64,000 bases of DNA. Source: Balneolales bacterium (GTDB lineage: Bacteria; Bacteroidota; Rhodothermia; Balneolales; Natronogracilivirgulaceae). The notes under the pieces were generated by a model. That model had not been told where the DNA came from. It was given only the letters and a program-made list of their open reading frames with translations, and ran no database searches. The stretch spans positions 1 to 64,000 of the forward strand of contig SLNO01000095.1 of NCBI GenBank assembly GCA_007132975.1, in the 5' to 3' direction. Made by a program: the position numbers and the translations under genes. Below are positions 31,842 to 36,904 of the stretch, in pieces (the first letter of the stretch is position 1; every line of letters begins with the position of its first letter).

Positions 31842-33209
31842 TCAGGGCGATGCATACCGGCGCATGGCGCGGCTGATCTGGCGGACGGCCTGGCGGATGC
31901 GGTGGGTGTTTTCCACCAGGCTCATTCTGACATACCCCTCACCCGCCTCGCCGAAACCCGTGCCCGGGGTCACCAGCACCTCGGCCTCATCGAGCAGCCA
32001 CTCGGCGAAACGGTAGGATCCCATGTGGCGCCAGGGCTCCGGGACCGGCGCCCACACAAACATGGCGCCGCGCTGGGGCGGGATCTGCCAGCCGGCACGC
32101 GCAAGTCCATCCAAAAGCACATCCCTCCTGCTCTCGTACTTTTTGGCCACCTTCCGTACTTCACTGGCGTCCTTGCGCAGCGATATGATGGCGGCCACCT
32201 GGATGGGTGTGAACATCCCGTAGTCGAAAAAGGCCTTGATGCGTGACAGCAGCGCAATAATTTTGGCATTGCCCGCGCAGAAACCGCAGCGCCATCCCGC
32301 CATGTTGAAAGATTTGCTCATGGTGAAGAACTCAACCGCGACCTCCTTCGCCCCCGGGACCTGGAGCACGCTTGGGGCCCGGTAATCGCCGAAAGTGATG
32401 TCCTTGTAGGCGAAATCGTGGATCAGGATCACCGAATTGCGGCGGCACCAGTCCACCATCTCCTCGAAAAAGGAGAGGTCGACCGTCATGCCGGTCGGGT
32501 TGTGCGGGTAGTTCAGGTAGAGGATTTTGGGCGGAGCATGTGGAACAGTTGGAGCATGTGGCGCAGTTGGAGCGGATGGAACGTGTGACGAGGGTGAAGC
32601 AGGTGACGCGGCTGGATCTGGCTTAGTGGACTGTCCGGTGTTCCCGCCTTGTGCCATACTCGCCTCCAGGTTGCGGAGCATGGCGCCGGCGTCATCGGTC
32701 ACCGGCACGGTGGTCACCTCGGCACCGGCAATGACGGCGCTCCACATGTGGACCGGGAAATAGGGTTCGGGGACGATGCACCGGTCGCCCGGGCCCAGCA
32801 GCGCCAGCGAAAGGTGCGACAGCCCCTCCTTGCTTCCGATGGTGGAAATGATCTCGGTTTCCGAGTCCAGATCCACCCCGTAAAGAGATTTGTAGTGATC
32901 GGCCGCGGCGAGCAGAAGATGCGGGATGCCGGTGGCGCGCGAGTAGCGGTGCGCCTTCTCGTCGTCCAGCACCTGGCGGATCTTCTCCACCGCATCGGGC
33001 GATGCCGGCATGTCCGGGTTGCCCATTCCGAAGTCAATGATATCGACCCCGGCGGCGCGGCGGCGCTGTTTTTCAGCGTTCAGGCGTCCAAAAACGTATT
33101 CGGGAAGCAGCTCCATACGCTTGGCTGGACGGATGGGGATCCCGTCGGTATCCGGGGCGGACTGCGGTCCGGCTGTCTGCTTTTCCGTCTGGTGGATTTT
33201 TTCACTCAT
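31842..33209 (-). CDS. Class I/II aminotransferase of the lysine operon, with repeat insert
   Basis: PLP-dependent fold type I aminotransferase, 455 residues from ATG 33209. That start overlaps the dapD stop as ATGA and is preferred to the longer frame to 33308. Motifs are G-M-G-N-P-D (about 61-66), L-N-Y-P-H-N-P-T-G (about 230-238) and the PLP lysine in T-M-S-K-S-F-N-M-A-G. It resembles AlaC/LL-diaminopimelate aminotransferase-type proteins. Next to dapD it most likely supplies the N-succinyl-diaminopimelate aminotransferase step (DapC role); direct DapL activity is the alternative. A roughly 40-residue Pro/Ala/His/Ser-rich insert precedes L-N-Y-P-H-N, encoded by an 18-bp tandem repeat. Confidence 0.82.
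   Translation of the reverse strand: MSEKIHQTEKQTAGPQSAPDTDGIPIRPAKRMELLPEYVFGRLNAEKQRRRAAGVDIIDFGMGNPDMPASPDAVEKIRQVLDDEKAHRYSRATGIPHLLLAAADHYKSLYGVDLDSETEIISTIGSKEGLSHLSLALLGPGDRCIVPEPYFPVHMWSAVIAGAEVTTVPVTDDAGAMLRNLEASMAQGGNTGQSTKPDPAASPASPSSHVPSAPTAPHAPTVPHAPPKILYLNYPHNPTGMTVDLSFFEEMVDWCRRNSVILIHDFAYKDITFGDYRAPSVLQVPGAKEVAVEFFTMSKSFNMAGWRCGFCAGNAKIIALLSRIKAFFDYGMFTPIQVAAIISLRKDASEVRKVAKKYESRRDVLLDGLARAGWQIPPQRGAMFVWAPVPEPWRHMGSYRFAEWLLDEAEVLVTPGTGFGEAGEGYVRMSLVENTHRIRQAVRQISRAMRRYASP
32530..32590. repeat. In-frame 18 bp tandem repeat inside the aminotransferase gene
   Basis: Three units near GGAGCATGTGGAACAGTT (plus-strand reading) lie head to tail, the third diverged. On the minus strand they encode six-residue repeats (P-T-V-P-H-A, P-T-A-P-H-A, P-S-A-P). 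The frame is preserved and the insert lies in a loop before the cofactor-contacting N-Y-P-H-N motif. Confidence 0.8.
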
Positions 33210-33994
33210 CGAAGTGCGTCCTCCAGTTCCAGTGAAGCGTTGCTCTTTTCGTCGCGGTATTTGATGATCAGGGCACAGGAGATCTGCAAGTTGTGCCGGC
33301 GGGCCCAAGCAAGGTTATCCGAGGCCGGCCTGCTTCCCGGGACCACCACCGCATCCTCTGGAATCGGCTCGCCCGGATCCAGGCGCCGCTCGTTAACGCA
33401 GTCGTAGACCGGCACGCTGCGCGAGAGTTTCACCCCGGGAGCGATGACAGCCCGTCGGGATACCTGCACGCCCTCCACCAGCACCGAACCGGCGCCTATG
33501 AAAGCGTCATCCTCCACAATGACCGGGGCCTCATTTACCGGCTCCAGCACGCCGCCGATCTGCACGCCGGCCGATAGGTGCACACGTTTCCCGATCTGCG
33601 CGCACGAACCGACCAGCACGTGCGAATCGATCATTGTCTCCTCATCCACATACGCGCCGATATTGACATACGACGGTGGCATGATAATAACACCAGGTGC
33701 AATGTAGGAGCCGCAGCGCACCGATGTGCCGCCCGGCACCACCCTTACGTTCCGGTCCAGCGTGAATTGCTGCGGAAGCAGGTTGTGTTTGTCGACAAAC
33801 GCTCCGTGCTCGGTCATTTTGCCGGCCCGGAATGCCTCAAGGATGGCCAGTTTGACCTCCGTATTGGCCACCCAGCGCCCGTTTGTCTTCGCGGCACTGC
33901 GCACTTTTCCGGTCTCCAGGTCGCGGATGGTCTGTTCCCAGCCGGTGGTTTTTGTTTCGTGGTCGATCAATTCAGTGCTGTTTCTACGGTCCAT
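33206..33994 (-). CDS. dapD: Tetrahydrodipicolinate N-succinyltransferase
   Basis: Succinyl-CoA-dependent acylation step of the diaminopimelate pathway. The 262-residue protein carries the left-handed beta-helix hexapeptide repeats (about residues 90-200: G-S-Y-I-A-P-G-V-I-I-M-P-P-S-Y-V-N-I-G-A, then I-D-S-H-V-L-V-G-S-C-A-Q-I-G) and the G-G-V-L-E-P segment with the conserved Glu. Its presence says that lysine is made by the succinylase route. It overlaps the downstream aminotransferase start by four bases and lies 41 bp after dapA. Confidence 0.95.
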   Translation of the reverse strand: MDRRNSTELIDHETKTTGWEQTIRDLETGKVRSAAKTNGRWVANTEVKLAILEAFRAGKMTEHGAFVDKHNLLPQQFTLDRNVRVVPGGTSVRCGSYIAPGVIIMPPSYVNIGAYVDEETMIDSHVLVGSCAQIGKRVHLSAGVQIGGVLEPVNEAPVIVEDDAFIGAGSVLVEGVQVSRRAVIAPGVKLSRSVPVYDCVNERRLDPGEPIPEDAVVVPGSRPASDNLAWARRHNLQISCALIIKYRDEKSNASLELEDALR

Positions 33995-34035: not shown

Positions 34036-35034
34036 CTATCTGCGGGATGGCGCCTCAGCCTGTCCGGCAGCATGATCCGCATGTTCGGCGGCGCGTCCTG
34101 TTCCCCCGAAAGTGGAATCCGCACGCTGATGTCCGGAATCCGATGCCTGCGTCCGGTACCACTCCCCGATCTCTTCGGAACAGCGGCGGACCAAATCCAT
34201 CGAGGTCATGTCGTTCCTGTGAAGCGGCAGTTTGACTTCCGGGGTGCGGATGCGTCCCTCCGCAGCAAGCACGGCTTTGGCTGGCACGGGATTGGATGCG
34301 ACAAACAGCGATCCGGCAGCACGCCGCCACAGGGCAATGTCGTCATCCGTAAGGCTTCCCGCAACTGCCATTTCACAGTAAAGCCGGGTTGCGTGAGGCC
34401 AGACATTCGCGGCCACTGAGACTACGCCCGCTGCGCCATGTGCGGCAAAATCGGGCAGCATCACATCGTCGCCACTGTACATTACGGCGCCATTCGATGC
34501 CTGGCGGTATTCCAGATAGTCGTCGACCGACCCGCTGGCCTCTTTGATGGACCAGAAATTGCGGTGTTCACTCAGCCGCTGCACGGTCTCCAGATTGAGC
34601 GGCGCTCCGGTGCGGCCGGGAATGTTGTAGAGCATGACGGGACGGCTGACAAAACCCATCAGTGTCGAGAACCAGTGGAATTGTCCCTCCCTGCCCGGCT
34701 TGGAATACAGCGGAGTGACCATGAGATACGCGTCAATGGGGCGCGTCTCCAGATAACTCAGCCATGAGATGATGTCAGGCAGATGGTGTCCACCCACGCC
34801 CGCCATCACGGGCACTTGCAGGTCCAGTGAGGTGGTGAATTCCACGATCAGCCGCCGCTCTTCGGGCGACAGGTTCAGCGCTTCGCCGGTGCTTCCCAGG
34901 ATCAGGACACCGTTGCCGGCCTCCTCCTGCTCGCGGAGAAGCCGTTCGAAGCTGGTCATGTCCGGCTGGCCGGTGGCTGTAAGCGGGGTGACCAGGGCGG
35001 TCCATACAGGTTGGTTCAGGTTTTGTTGTGACAT
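34036..35034 (-). CDS. dapA: 4-hydroxy-tetrahydrodipicolinate synthase
   Basis: Condenses pyruvate with aspartate semialdehyde, entering the lysine/diaminopimelate branch. It is 332 residues; the TIM barrel covers about 8-290. G-S-T-G-E-A-L-N-L-S (about 47-56) and Y-N-I-P-G-R-T-G (about 135-142) are diagnostic, and the Schiff-base lysine is in I-K-E-A-S-G (about 163-168). The last roughly 40 residues (from about 295) are a Gly/His/Ala-rich tail not seen in normal DapA (about 290-300 residues). Feedback inhibition by lysine in this family is variable; here control is more likely through the riboswitches in the leader. Confidence 0.95.
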   Translation of the reverse strand: MSQQNLNQPVWTALVTPLTATGQPDMTSFERLLREQEEAGNGVLILGSTGEALNLSPEERRLIVEFTTSLDLQVPVMAGVGGHHLPDIISWLSYLETRPIDAYLMVTPLYSKPGREGQFHWFSTLMGFVSRPVMLYNIPGRTGAPLNLETVQRLSEHRNFWSIKEASGSVDDYLEYRQASNGAVMYSGDDVMLPDFAAHGAAGVVSVAANVWPHATRLYCEMAVAGSLTDDDIALWRRAAGSLFVASNPVPAKAVLAAEGRIRTPEVKLPLHRNDMTSMDLVRRCSEEIGEWYRTQASDSGHQRADSTFGGTGRAAEHADHAAGQAEAPSRR

Positions 35035-35067: not shown

Positions 35068-35790
35068 CTAATTTGGAGTGCTTCGGCGATAGCCGTTCTG
35101 TGCGCGCAGGCCTGCAAGTACAAGCTGCTGGAAGTCATGAAGCCCCGGTCCCGGCAGCAGATCGGCGTGGAGCACCTGCCGGGCAGCCCACAACGCGCCG
35201 GACGCGAAAAGCTTCCGGTCACGTGCAGAATGGTGGATGCGGATCTGCTCGAACGGTGTGTTTAGCGTGAGGGAATGTTCGCCGACCACATCGCCGGTGC
35301 GTTCCGATGTGACCTCGGCCGGCGCTCCCAGCCAGCGTTGCCACGACAATGCCGTGCCACTCGGGGCATCCTTCTTGTTTTTATGGTGGACTTCGTGGAT
35401 GGCAAAGCTGTGCTCATCGTAGAGTGTTCCGGCCATGCCCAGGATCTGGATCATCTCGTGGACCAGGCTCATTCCCAGGCTGAAATTACTGGCGTGCAGC
35501 CACTGTAGTCCGTTTTCCGAGAGACTGCTGGAAAACGCCTCGCGTCCTTCAGGCCACTTAAAACCCGTAGAGCCGGTCACGACGGGAATGCGGCTGGCAA
35601 TCAGTTCGGGGATGCAGGAAAGGAAAGCGGGGCCGGGCAAAAAGCTGATGATGACATCATGTCCGGACAGTGCCTGGCGTTCAGGCGGACGACTGGTGTT
35701 GAAGATGGATACGGACATTCCGGGGGTGGATGAGGCGAGCGCATGCACATGCTGGCCTGTTTTGCCGTTTCCAAGTAGTGCGATATTCAT
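35068..35790 (-). CDS. dapB: 4-hydroxy-tetrahydrodipicolinate reductase
   Basis: NAD(P)H-dependent reductase after DapA. The 240-residue protein has the Rossmann start M-N-I-A-L-L-G-N-G-K-T-G, the T-G-S-T-G-F loop (about 71-76), A-S-N-F-S-L-G-M (about 99-106) and the catalytic H-E-V-H-H-K-N-K-K-D-A-P-S-G-T-A (about 130-145). It is the first gene of the lysine operon, 120 bp downstream of the proximal lysine riboswitch. The sequence before the ATG is AT-rich with no strong Shine-Dalgarno. Confidence 0.95.
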   Translation of the reverse strand: MNIALLGNGKTGQHVHALASSTPGMSVSIFNTSRPPERQALSGHDVIISFLPGPAFLSCIPELIASRIPVVTGSTGFKWPEGREAFSSSLSENGLQWLHASNFSLGMSLVHEMIQILGMAGTLYDEHSFAIHEVHHKNKKDAPSGTALSWQRWLGAPAEVTSERTGDVVGEHSLTLNTPFEQIRIHHSARDRKLFASGALWAARQVLHADLLPGPGLHDFQQLVLAGLRAQNGYRRSTPN

Positions 35791-35910
35791 TTTTATGTGA
35801 TCTTACGGTGATTCGGGATGATAAAAACCCGGGAGGCGTCACTTCAGACCACTCAGCGATATCGTAAAAGGCGGGCAGGCGGCGAATCGCTGTTTCGATA
35901 GGATTCACTT

Positions 35911-36107
35911 CCTAAAGCGCTCCACGATACCCGCAAGCGGGACTTCGTGACAGTTCCAGGGATTCAGCCACTGGACCCAGCACCGTGGAACGCCGCAGTT
36001 CCACAATACTTCGGCAGATCGTCCCATCACCATCGGTCATCGGCTCTGCGGCTTTCGGCCGCATACGGCACCTCACGATGGCTGCCTGACGTCTGCACCT
36101 CTTCAGG
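35911..36107 (-). promoter_or_regulatory. Lysine riboswitch aptamer, proximal copy
   Basis: Read on the minus strand, this about 197-nt element has the conserved lysine (L-box) signatures: AGAGGTGC (36102-36095), GCCGAAG (36015-36009) and CTGTCA (35953-35948). The closing P1 stem is CCTGAAG (36107-36101) with CTTTAGG (35917-35911), seven pairs including one G-U. After CTGTCA comes the expected P5 hairpin (CCCGC / GCGGG inside CACGA / TCGTG). A 7-bp GTGGAAC / GTTCCAC hairpin is also present. It lies in front of dapB-dapA-dapD-aminotransferase, so lysine should reduce expression of its own pathway. The expression platform is not clear: no intrinsic terminator is obvious before dapB. Confidence 0.92.
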
Positions 36108-36142
36108 TTACAGTTAATAAAGAACAAGTCCGGTACTGGCCA

Positions 36143-36168
36143 AAAAACCAGGCCGTAAACGGGCCTGC
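36143..36168 (-). terminator. Intrinsic terminator between the two lysine riboswitches
   Basis: On the minus strand CAGGCC-cgtttac-GGCCTG is followed by GTTTTTTGG, a 6-bp GC-rich stem with a six-T run. It lies about 35 nt before the proximal aptamer and about 365 nt after the distal one. It could end transcripts started upstream of the distal aptamer, which would make the proximal copy depend on its own promoter or on read-through. Confidence 0.6.
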
Positions 36169-36289
36169 CACAGCATAATAGATCCGGTCGCCGGGAAAAC
36201 ACCCGATCATCAGCTCCCCTCAAAGCTTCGATACATGGTGAAATCTTTCCGGCCGACCGGATATTTTTTGCCGCAGCAAACAAATAAGT

Positions 36290-36329
36290 GCGATTGCCAG
36301 GTCCCCGGGCGGGGTTGCCCGGCAATCGC
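36290..36329 (-). other. Long stable hairpin between the riboswitches
   Basis: On the minus strand GCGATTGCC pairs perfectly with GGCAATCGC (9 bp), and the loop itself contains CCCCG / CGGGG. The following ACTTATTTGTTTG is only moderately T-rich. It may be a second terminator or a structured spacer in the lysine operon leader. Confidence 0.5.
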
Positions 36330-36511
36330 CAAACCGAAGCAAACAAGATCGGGGGATTTCAGCAGGTTTGCATCCGGTATGTTGTCATAATGTCAAATGT
36401 CTGCCACCGAAGCCCGTCGGCTATGCAACCCGGACGGACCATTACGGCAGACCGCAATCCTGTCAGAGAAGGAATATGTCACCGGAAGTCAGATAGGCCG
36501 CTCAAAAGCTA

Positions 36512-36537
36512 AAAGTCCGGTTTTCAGAAAGGACCTT
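36512..36537 (-). other. Hairpin overlapping P1 of the distal riboswitch
   Basis: On the minus strand AAGGTCC-tttctgaaaacc-GGACTTT can form seven pairs (one G-U) and is followed by TAGCTTTT. Its 5' arm uses the same bases as the 3' arm of P1 of the distal aptamer, so the two structures exclude each other. That is what an expression platform does, but the polarity (P1 formation would break this hairpin) is opposite to a simple lysine-off terminator. Confidence 0.45.
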
Positions 36538-36734
36538 AAGCGCTCCACAGCCAATTCCATCTGGAAATTGAGTGACAGTCCCCGGGATTCAGCCCGAAGT
36601 CCCAGCACATCGGAAAGCCGTTTTCCCGGTATGCTTCGGCAAATTGCCCCCTGGCTGTCGGTCATCGGCTGTGCGGCAGTTTGCCACACCCGGCACCTCG
36701 CAACAGTTACCTGGCATCTGCACCTCTTCAAGGT
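36533..36734 (-). promoter_or_regulatory. Lysine riboswitch aptamer, distal copy
   Basis: Second L-box on the minus strand, about 430 nt upstream of the first and only about two-thirds identical to it. Signatures are AGAGGTGC (36727-36720), GCCGAAG (36640-36634) and CTGTCA (36578-36573). P1 is ACCTTGA (36734-36728) with TTAAGGT (36539-36533), seven pairs with one G-U. P5 is CAATTTCC / GGAATTG. Relative to the proximal copy several stems keep pairing through double changes: the P5 inner stem CCCGC/GCGGG becomes TTCCA/TGGAA, and GGAAC/GTTCC becomes GGAAA/TTTCC. The element precedes the lysine operon and follows the GNAT gene. Confidence 0.92.
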
Positions 36735-36904
36735 AATCAATAACATAGCGACATTATCCTCAAAATCAAAATGTTTTTAATAAAAAAACGGGACGGTACG
36801 TGCTTCGCCGGAAATAATCCATTTTTGTTTTGGAAAAGCCCTTACATTTTCGCTGGCCGGCGCAGGATTGGACCGATTTTTTTACTGAACGGGTGGATAC
36901 GGCC

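Follow-up and report, generated by a model that had tools for sequence, protein, structure and literature searches.

Fourteen double lysine riboswitches were listed by Sherlock and colleagues, who classed them as pseudo-cooperative and according to whom they appear to use terminator stems (PMC9481103). Gaps of more than 300 nt between aptamers were dropped from that survey, so that most tandem cases of the bacterial family studied here would fall outside it, and a literature search for the lysine riboswitch together with Balneolales gave no match. The window analyzed here, a stretch of 64,000 nucleotides of contig SLNO01000095.1, stems from a soda-lake bacterium of the order Balneolales and contains, on its minus strand, two lysine riboswitch aptamers upstream of dapB-dapA-dapD-aminotransferase genes. 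Double lysine riboswitches are already known as a kind, and the tandem itself is real and its duplication old; a new kind of element could lie in the structured spacer.

Two lysine aptamers upstream of a dap operon

An earlier note on this DNA had claimed two lysine riboswitches in series and had named an Infernal search with RF00168 as a check. When cmscan was run on the whole window, only two matches above threshold were obtained, both to RF00168, and both copies span the full model with scores above the gathering score of 30 (see the table). The span of 35911-36734 given in the note proved correct within a few bases and its spacing of about 430 nt is a fair estimate of the measured gap of 418 nt, while its two-thirds identity between the copies agrees with the 67% determined over the aligned bases of aptamers 1 and 2.

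Both copies carry all of the strongly conserved stretches of RF00168, namely AGAGGUGC, GCCGAA, UGG, CUGUCA and GUGGAG-GCU, and also the pocket bases listed for the lysine riboswitch (PMC3764141), that is GAGGUGC at P1/P2, GCCGA in J2-3, GAA in L4, and CUGUCA. The kissing contact between L2 and L3, a tertiary feature beyond the stems compared in the note, reads GCCG/CGGC in both copies of the window. Among 20 aptamers of the order Balneolales, this contact was paired in 77 of 80 cells, compared to partner shuffling, which gave 63.5 paired cells on average and at most 71 across 5000 trials, and the pair types observed (G-C, A-U, U-A, and G-U) include compensatory change. It adds to the covarying stems from which the note had concluded that both copies are conserved as RNA, and this conclusion holds. 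In the internal loops of P2, which correspond to the region of the kink-turn and the loop-E motif, both copies deviate from the Rfam consensus as judged by eye; the lysine riboswitch of T. maritima is also without a kink-turn (PMC3764141). Both aptamers look functional, and we infer that they bind lysine.

Profile matches for the four downstream genes agree with the lysine operon dapB-dapA-dapD-aminotransferase claimed in the note, with dapB and the aminotransferase partly below cut-off; in the case of the aminotransferase, the fourth gene of the operon, this applies to the best NCBIfam matches. The DapB protein is short (240 aa), lies under the curated TIGR00036 cut-off and represents a divergent DapB subgroup. 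Within the aminotransferase, a Pro/Ala/Ser-rich insert PAASPASPSSHVPSAPTAPHAPTVPHAPP breaks the family match into two stretches.

Table. Features of the dap leader and operon, with positions in the window and the evidence for each.
Feature	Positions	Strand	Evidence or remark
Promoter-like TTTG-N19-TATGTTAT, Bacteroidetes -33/-7 type	36740..36770	(-)	fixed-offset motif
Lysine riboswitch aptamer 1	36530..36736	(-)	RF00168, 60.2 bits, E 3.1e-13, model 1-182
Conserved spacer RNA H0-H1-H2, ~208 nt	36174..36381	(-)	shared minimum-energy fold, z-scores, compensatory pairs; no Rfam match
Hairpin H0; loop CCCGATC at 36353-36347	36333..36378	(-)	12 pairs in G000; compensatory re-pairing in G001 and G011
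Hairpin H1 (GCGATTGCC...GGCAATCGC)	36290..36329	(-)	several compensatory pairs, alignment A3
Hairpin H2; invariant GCTTTGAGGGGAGC at 36226-36213, GATCGGG at 36208-36202	36183..36261	(-)	14-nt core kept in 6/6
Terminator-like hairpin CAGGCC...GGCCTG-GTTTTTT	36142..36167	(-)	between the aptamers, two scans; separate hairpin after H2 in G000
Lysine riboswitch aptamer 2	35907..36111	(-)	RF00168, 80.0 bits, E 2.8e-19, model 1-182
Alternative hairpins GTGAATC / AGCGATTCGC / ATCGCT	35855..35908	(-)	kept in most host-family genomes; covariation judged by eye
Stem GTGGTCT/AGATCAC, ending 6 nt before dapB start	35797..35852	(-)	covarying in relatives
dapB (4-hydroxy-tetrahydrodipicolinate reductase, divergent)	35068..35790	(-)	PF05173 (DapB_C) above cut-off; TIGR00036 below cut-off
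dapA	34036..35034	(-)	TIGR00674, 249 bits, over cut-off
dapD (tetrahydrodipicolinate N-succinyltransferase)	33206..33994	(-)	NF008808, 286.8 bits, over cut-off
Alanine / LL-diaminopimelate aminotransferase-like protein	31842..33308	(-)	PF00155, NF006033, NF006604; true start uncertain

History of the tandem and position of the promoter

RF00168 is present in 9 of 20 genomes of the host family, six of which harbor the tandem (G000, G001, G007, G009, G011, and G013, with G007 counted as tandem and its first aptamer cut by the contig end) and three a single lysine aptamer (G012, G014, and G017). In the relatives, the gaps between the aptamers amount to 437, 410, 429, 292, and 94 nt. At the level of the class, RF00168 was found in 15 of 245 genomes, being confined within the order to three families, and in a sample of the phylum it was found in 13 of 396 genomes. 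Every match outside the host family, in both the class and the phylum genomes, is single. The tandem arrangement is unusual, as had been claimed; the broader statement that lysine riboswitches normally occur singly is valid within the phylum sample of Bacteroidota, but double lysine riboswitches have already been published (PMC9481103).

A maximum-likelihood tree was built from 25 aptamers, and in it one side of a branch with a support of 92/92 is made up of the five aptamer-1 copies, which come from three genera. The aptamer-2 copies are scattered among the single aptamers in the same tree, where one aptamer-2 clade was not rejected. The earlier note had left the choice between an old duplication and separate acquisition; because the tree unites the aptamer-1 copies from three genera, the former is favored over the latter. 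The tree suggests, as its simplest reading, one duplication before the three genera split, followed by losses. The closest DapB proteins outside the order were encountered in Bacteriovoracaceae and Bdellovibrionales, whose dap loci (L022-L026) also bear one lysine riboswitch, and an old transfer of operon and riboswitch is suggested by these loci.

The promoter consensus of Bacteroidetes is TTTG/TANNTTTG (PMC6847099), and a promoter-like sequence of this type is located in the window such that transcription is predicted to start at about position 36735, within the first bases of aptamer 1. The motif TTTG-N19/20-TAnnTTTG was scored out of 10 at one fixed distance before the aptamer, an offset that was picked after the data had been seen and within which the shuffles were allowed equal freedom. 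Upstream of first or single aptamers the motif is present in 14/14 cases, with a mean of 8.64/10 compared to 5.55 for the shuffles, and 0/1000 shuffles reached a value as high. In contrast, at the same offset before six second aptamers it was found in 0/6 cases, with a mean of 5.67 that does not stand out from the shuffles, of which 108/1000 were as high. These data argue against the two promoters that the note had considered, and an internal promoter before aptamer 2 was rejected as a candidate since no TTTG/TANNTTTG exists where all first or single aptamers have one. As a promoter occurs only before first aptamers, transcription most likely proceeds by read-through into aptamer 2 and the dap operon, on what would be a single leader transcript. 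An internal promoter of another type between the aptamers is possible.

The RNA between the aptamers and the region before dapB

A structured RNA between the two aptamers had been overlooked in the earlier note. When the spacers of relatives were aligned, a conserved block with the invariant GCTTTGAGGGGAGCT was obtained, and within the spacer RNA there is an invariant GCUUUGAGGGGAGCU hairpin. The minimum-energy folds of five genomes, each folded alone, agree in three hairpins (H0, H1, and H2), and the 14-nt core of H2 is identical in all six genomes bearing the spacer RNA. Compared to dinucleotide shuffles, its fold has a z-score of -4.76 in the window and of -4.38 in G004, and RNAalifold analysis of four sequences revealed 13 pairs with compensatory change, to which the hand-aligned H0 adds more. 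H2 contains GATCGGG, the complement of the H0 loop sequence CCCGATC; G007 is without H0 and H1, and its GATCGGG is altered to TTCTGGG. Besides the window (36381-36174, minus strand), the spacer RNA occurs at loci L018, L017, L016, and L044. Everywhere except in G004 it is flanked by lysine aptamers on both sides, in two genera, and G013 has tandem aptamers without it.

A T-run follows H2 in G001, G004, G007, and G011, and most tandem genomes show terminator-like hairpins or T-runs in their spacers, with weak signals in G009 and G013. The terminator-like hairpin of the window is weak on its own because two such sites were found when 1.3 were expected. The 418-nt spacer far exceeds the usual length of an expression platform, and no conserved pairing linking P1 of aptamer 1 to a terminator in the spacer was found.

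A search of the spacer against Rfam, up to E 10, gave no family apart from one meaningless match, and a known RNA was rejected. With a covariance model, the spacer RNA was seen only in the host family; wider matches were weak and not credible, the best being a tRNA cluster. A leader peptide was also considered, as GAGGGGAGCTGATG resembles a ribosome site and start in G000 and G009, and was rejected, the ATG missing in G007 and G011. A housekeeping RNA or a mobile repeat was rejected as well, since the element is single copy and missing from near-complete members of the family. The spacer may be an undescribed structured RNA and a possible third regulatory part.

G004 is a sister genome of the same genus that has lost both the dap operon and aptamer 2 (L044, G004:C192 1240-1600) and in which aptamer 1 is shortened to about 38 nt with a changed core. 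The promoter and the intact three-hairpin RNA (H0-H1-H2), together with a T6 tail, are kept between genes for GNAT and FmdB. In G010 (L065), the GNAT and FmdB genes adjoin, without dap operon and without spacer RNA. As dapB was not found in the genomes of G004 (88% complete) and G010 (67% complete), these bacteria are possibly lysine auxotrophs or users of other genes. The remnant in G004 may indicate that the spacer RNA works alone or merely that the operon loss was recent. Selection on the spacer RNA after the operon loss was not demonstrable with the 24 sites available for comparison, 2/85 conserved sites being changed in the element versus 1/24 in the aptamer remnant.

On the 3' side of aptamer 2, a candidate expression platform consists of three strands with mutually exclusive pairing, in which AGCGATTCGC pairs with GTGAATC or with ATCGCT. 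Closer to dapB, four genomes keep a stem whose end lies 5-7 nt upstream of the start, reading GTGATCT/AGATCAC in G007 and G009 and GTGATACTT/AAGTATCAC in G001. When the leader was folded with the P1 strand of aptamer 2 free or occupied, the predicted access to the dapB start was unchanged, and translational switching at aptamer 2 through P1 release was rejected on the grounds that folding gave no difference. No clear terminator was seen after aptamer 2.

A proposed series of switches and its relation to known systems

At the sequence level, the leader possesses two intact aptamers of old, vertical descent, a promoter at one conserved position and a spacer of conserved structure. With confidence only just better than even, we favor a series of two lysine OFF-switches with a structured spacer between them, served by one promoter. 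Transcription would start at a single promoter just 5' of aptamer 1, and the transcript would cross aptamer 1 and the spacer, with H0-H1-H2 and the terminator-like hairpins, before passing through aptamer 2 into the dap genes. Lysine would be bound by both aptamers; on aptamer 1 it would favor a transcription stop within the spacer and on aptamer 2 it would lower expression again, nearer dapB. Two such OFF-switches in series would lead to a steeper or wider lysine response. In favor of this model are the full-length aptamer matches with their pocket bases and kissing contact, the retention of the tandem in six genomes, the grouping of the aptamer-1 copies, the restriction of the promoter to first aptamers, the terminator-like signals in most spacers and the apparent terminators of the published double lysine riboswitches. 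Against it stand the great length of the spacer, the weak terminator signals of G009 and G013, the absence of a conserved pairing from P1 of aptamer 1 to a spacer terminator, the unchanged access to the dapB start on folding and the possible internal promoter of another type.

The retention in G004 of promoter, intact H0-H1-H2 and T6 tail after the loss of operon and aptamer 2, together with the ability of the spacer RNA to fold by itself (z -4.8 and -4.4) and its invariant 14-nt hairpin, might point to a different organization. In that case, aptamer 1 would control a separate trans-acting small RNA (promoter-aptamer 1-H0-H1-H2-terminator) and aptamer 2 alone would control the dap operon from an unrecognized promoter. 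We consider this unlikely, as there is no conserved promoter before aptamer 2, as the spacer RNA outside G004 is always enclosed by a pair of lysine aptamers (in two genera) and as G007 is without H0 and H1; its persistence in G004 may reflect just a recent loss, the changes at 2/85 and 1/24 sites showing no difference. That the spacer RNA serves as a third sensor, or as a leader element bound by a protein, with the operon integrating lysine and a second signal, would fit its complex conserved fold and invariant loop sequences and seems to us quite improbable. The possible pairing of the H0 loop with H2 (CCCGATC-GATCGGG) would agree with it, G007 having lost H0 and H1 and changed the partner; however, among only six sequences this co-loss could equally be drift, the candidate sensor has no known ligand or protein, and G013 has the tandem without the spacer RNA. 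Taken more generally, the idea that the spacer specifies a novel class of structured regulatory RNA with one lysine riboswitch on each side, whether as a small RNA under lysine control or as a third sensor, and that this RNA is able to outlive its operon, is a tentative one that we regard as possible and short of probable.

Very improbable in our opinion is that one aptamer is a decaying relic and that the other copy does the work, since the pocket bases and the kissing pairs have been preserved in each copy across three genera. Such decay would be compatible with the fact that a single aptamer suffices in G012, G014, and G017, with the higher score of aptamer 2 over aptamer 1 in 4/5 tandem genomes in which both copies were scored whole, and with the long branch of aptamer 1 from G011.

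The two aptamers resemble the lysine riboswitch (L box, RF00168) in their match to the covariance model, their pocket bases, their kissing loop and their target, a lysine biosynthesis operon, and differ in occurring in Balneolales and in being without a clear terminator after aptamer 2. As in the tandem glycine riboswitch, two homologous amino-acid aptamers are present in one leader; however, the glycine aptamers lie next to each other with a common expression platform, whereas the lysine aptamers described here are far apart. Riboswitch-controlled small RNAs exist, such as those of the cobalamin/EutX and Rli55 type. An aptamer 5' of a structured RNA and a terminator would match that layout, but here the ligand would be lysine, and a short transcript with a trans function is hypothetical. 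With the pseudo-cooperative double lysine riboswitches (PMC9481103), the locus shares two same-ligand aptamers before one operon. In contrast to these, its gap of 418 nt does not pass the filter of ≤300 nt used in the survey, and its spacer contains a conserved structured RNA, whereas the published cases were described only with apparent terminator stems. A pseudo-cooperative tandem lies on one transcript, and for the two aptamers studied here, which have a promoter only before the first, such a common transcript is predicted; with regard to each aptamer having its own terminator, terminator-like sites are present in the spacer and none is clear after aptamer 2. Our analysis extends the known double lysine riboswitches by a lineage of Balneolales in which they are conserved and of the wide-gap sort that was filtered out by the published survey. 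If the spacer RNA were controlled by lysine or sensed something else, this would be a composite leader in which at least three RNA parts serve one biosynthetic operon.
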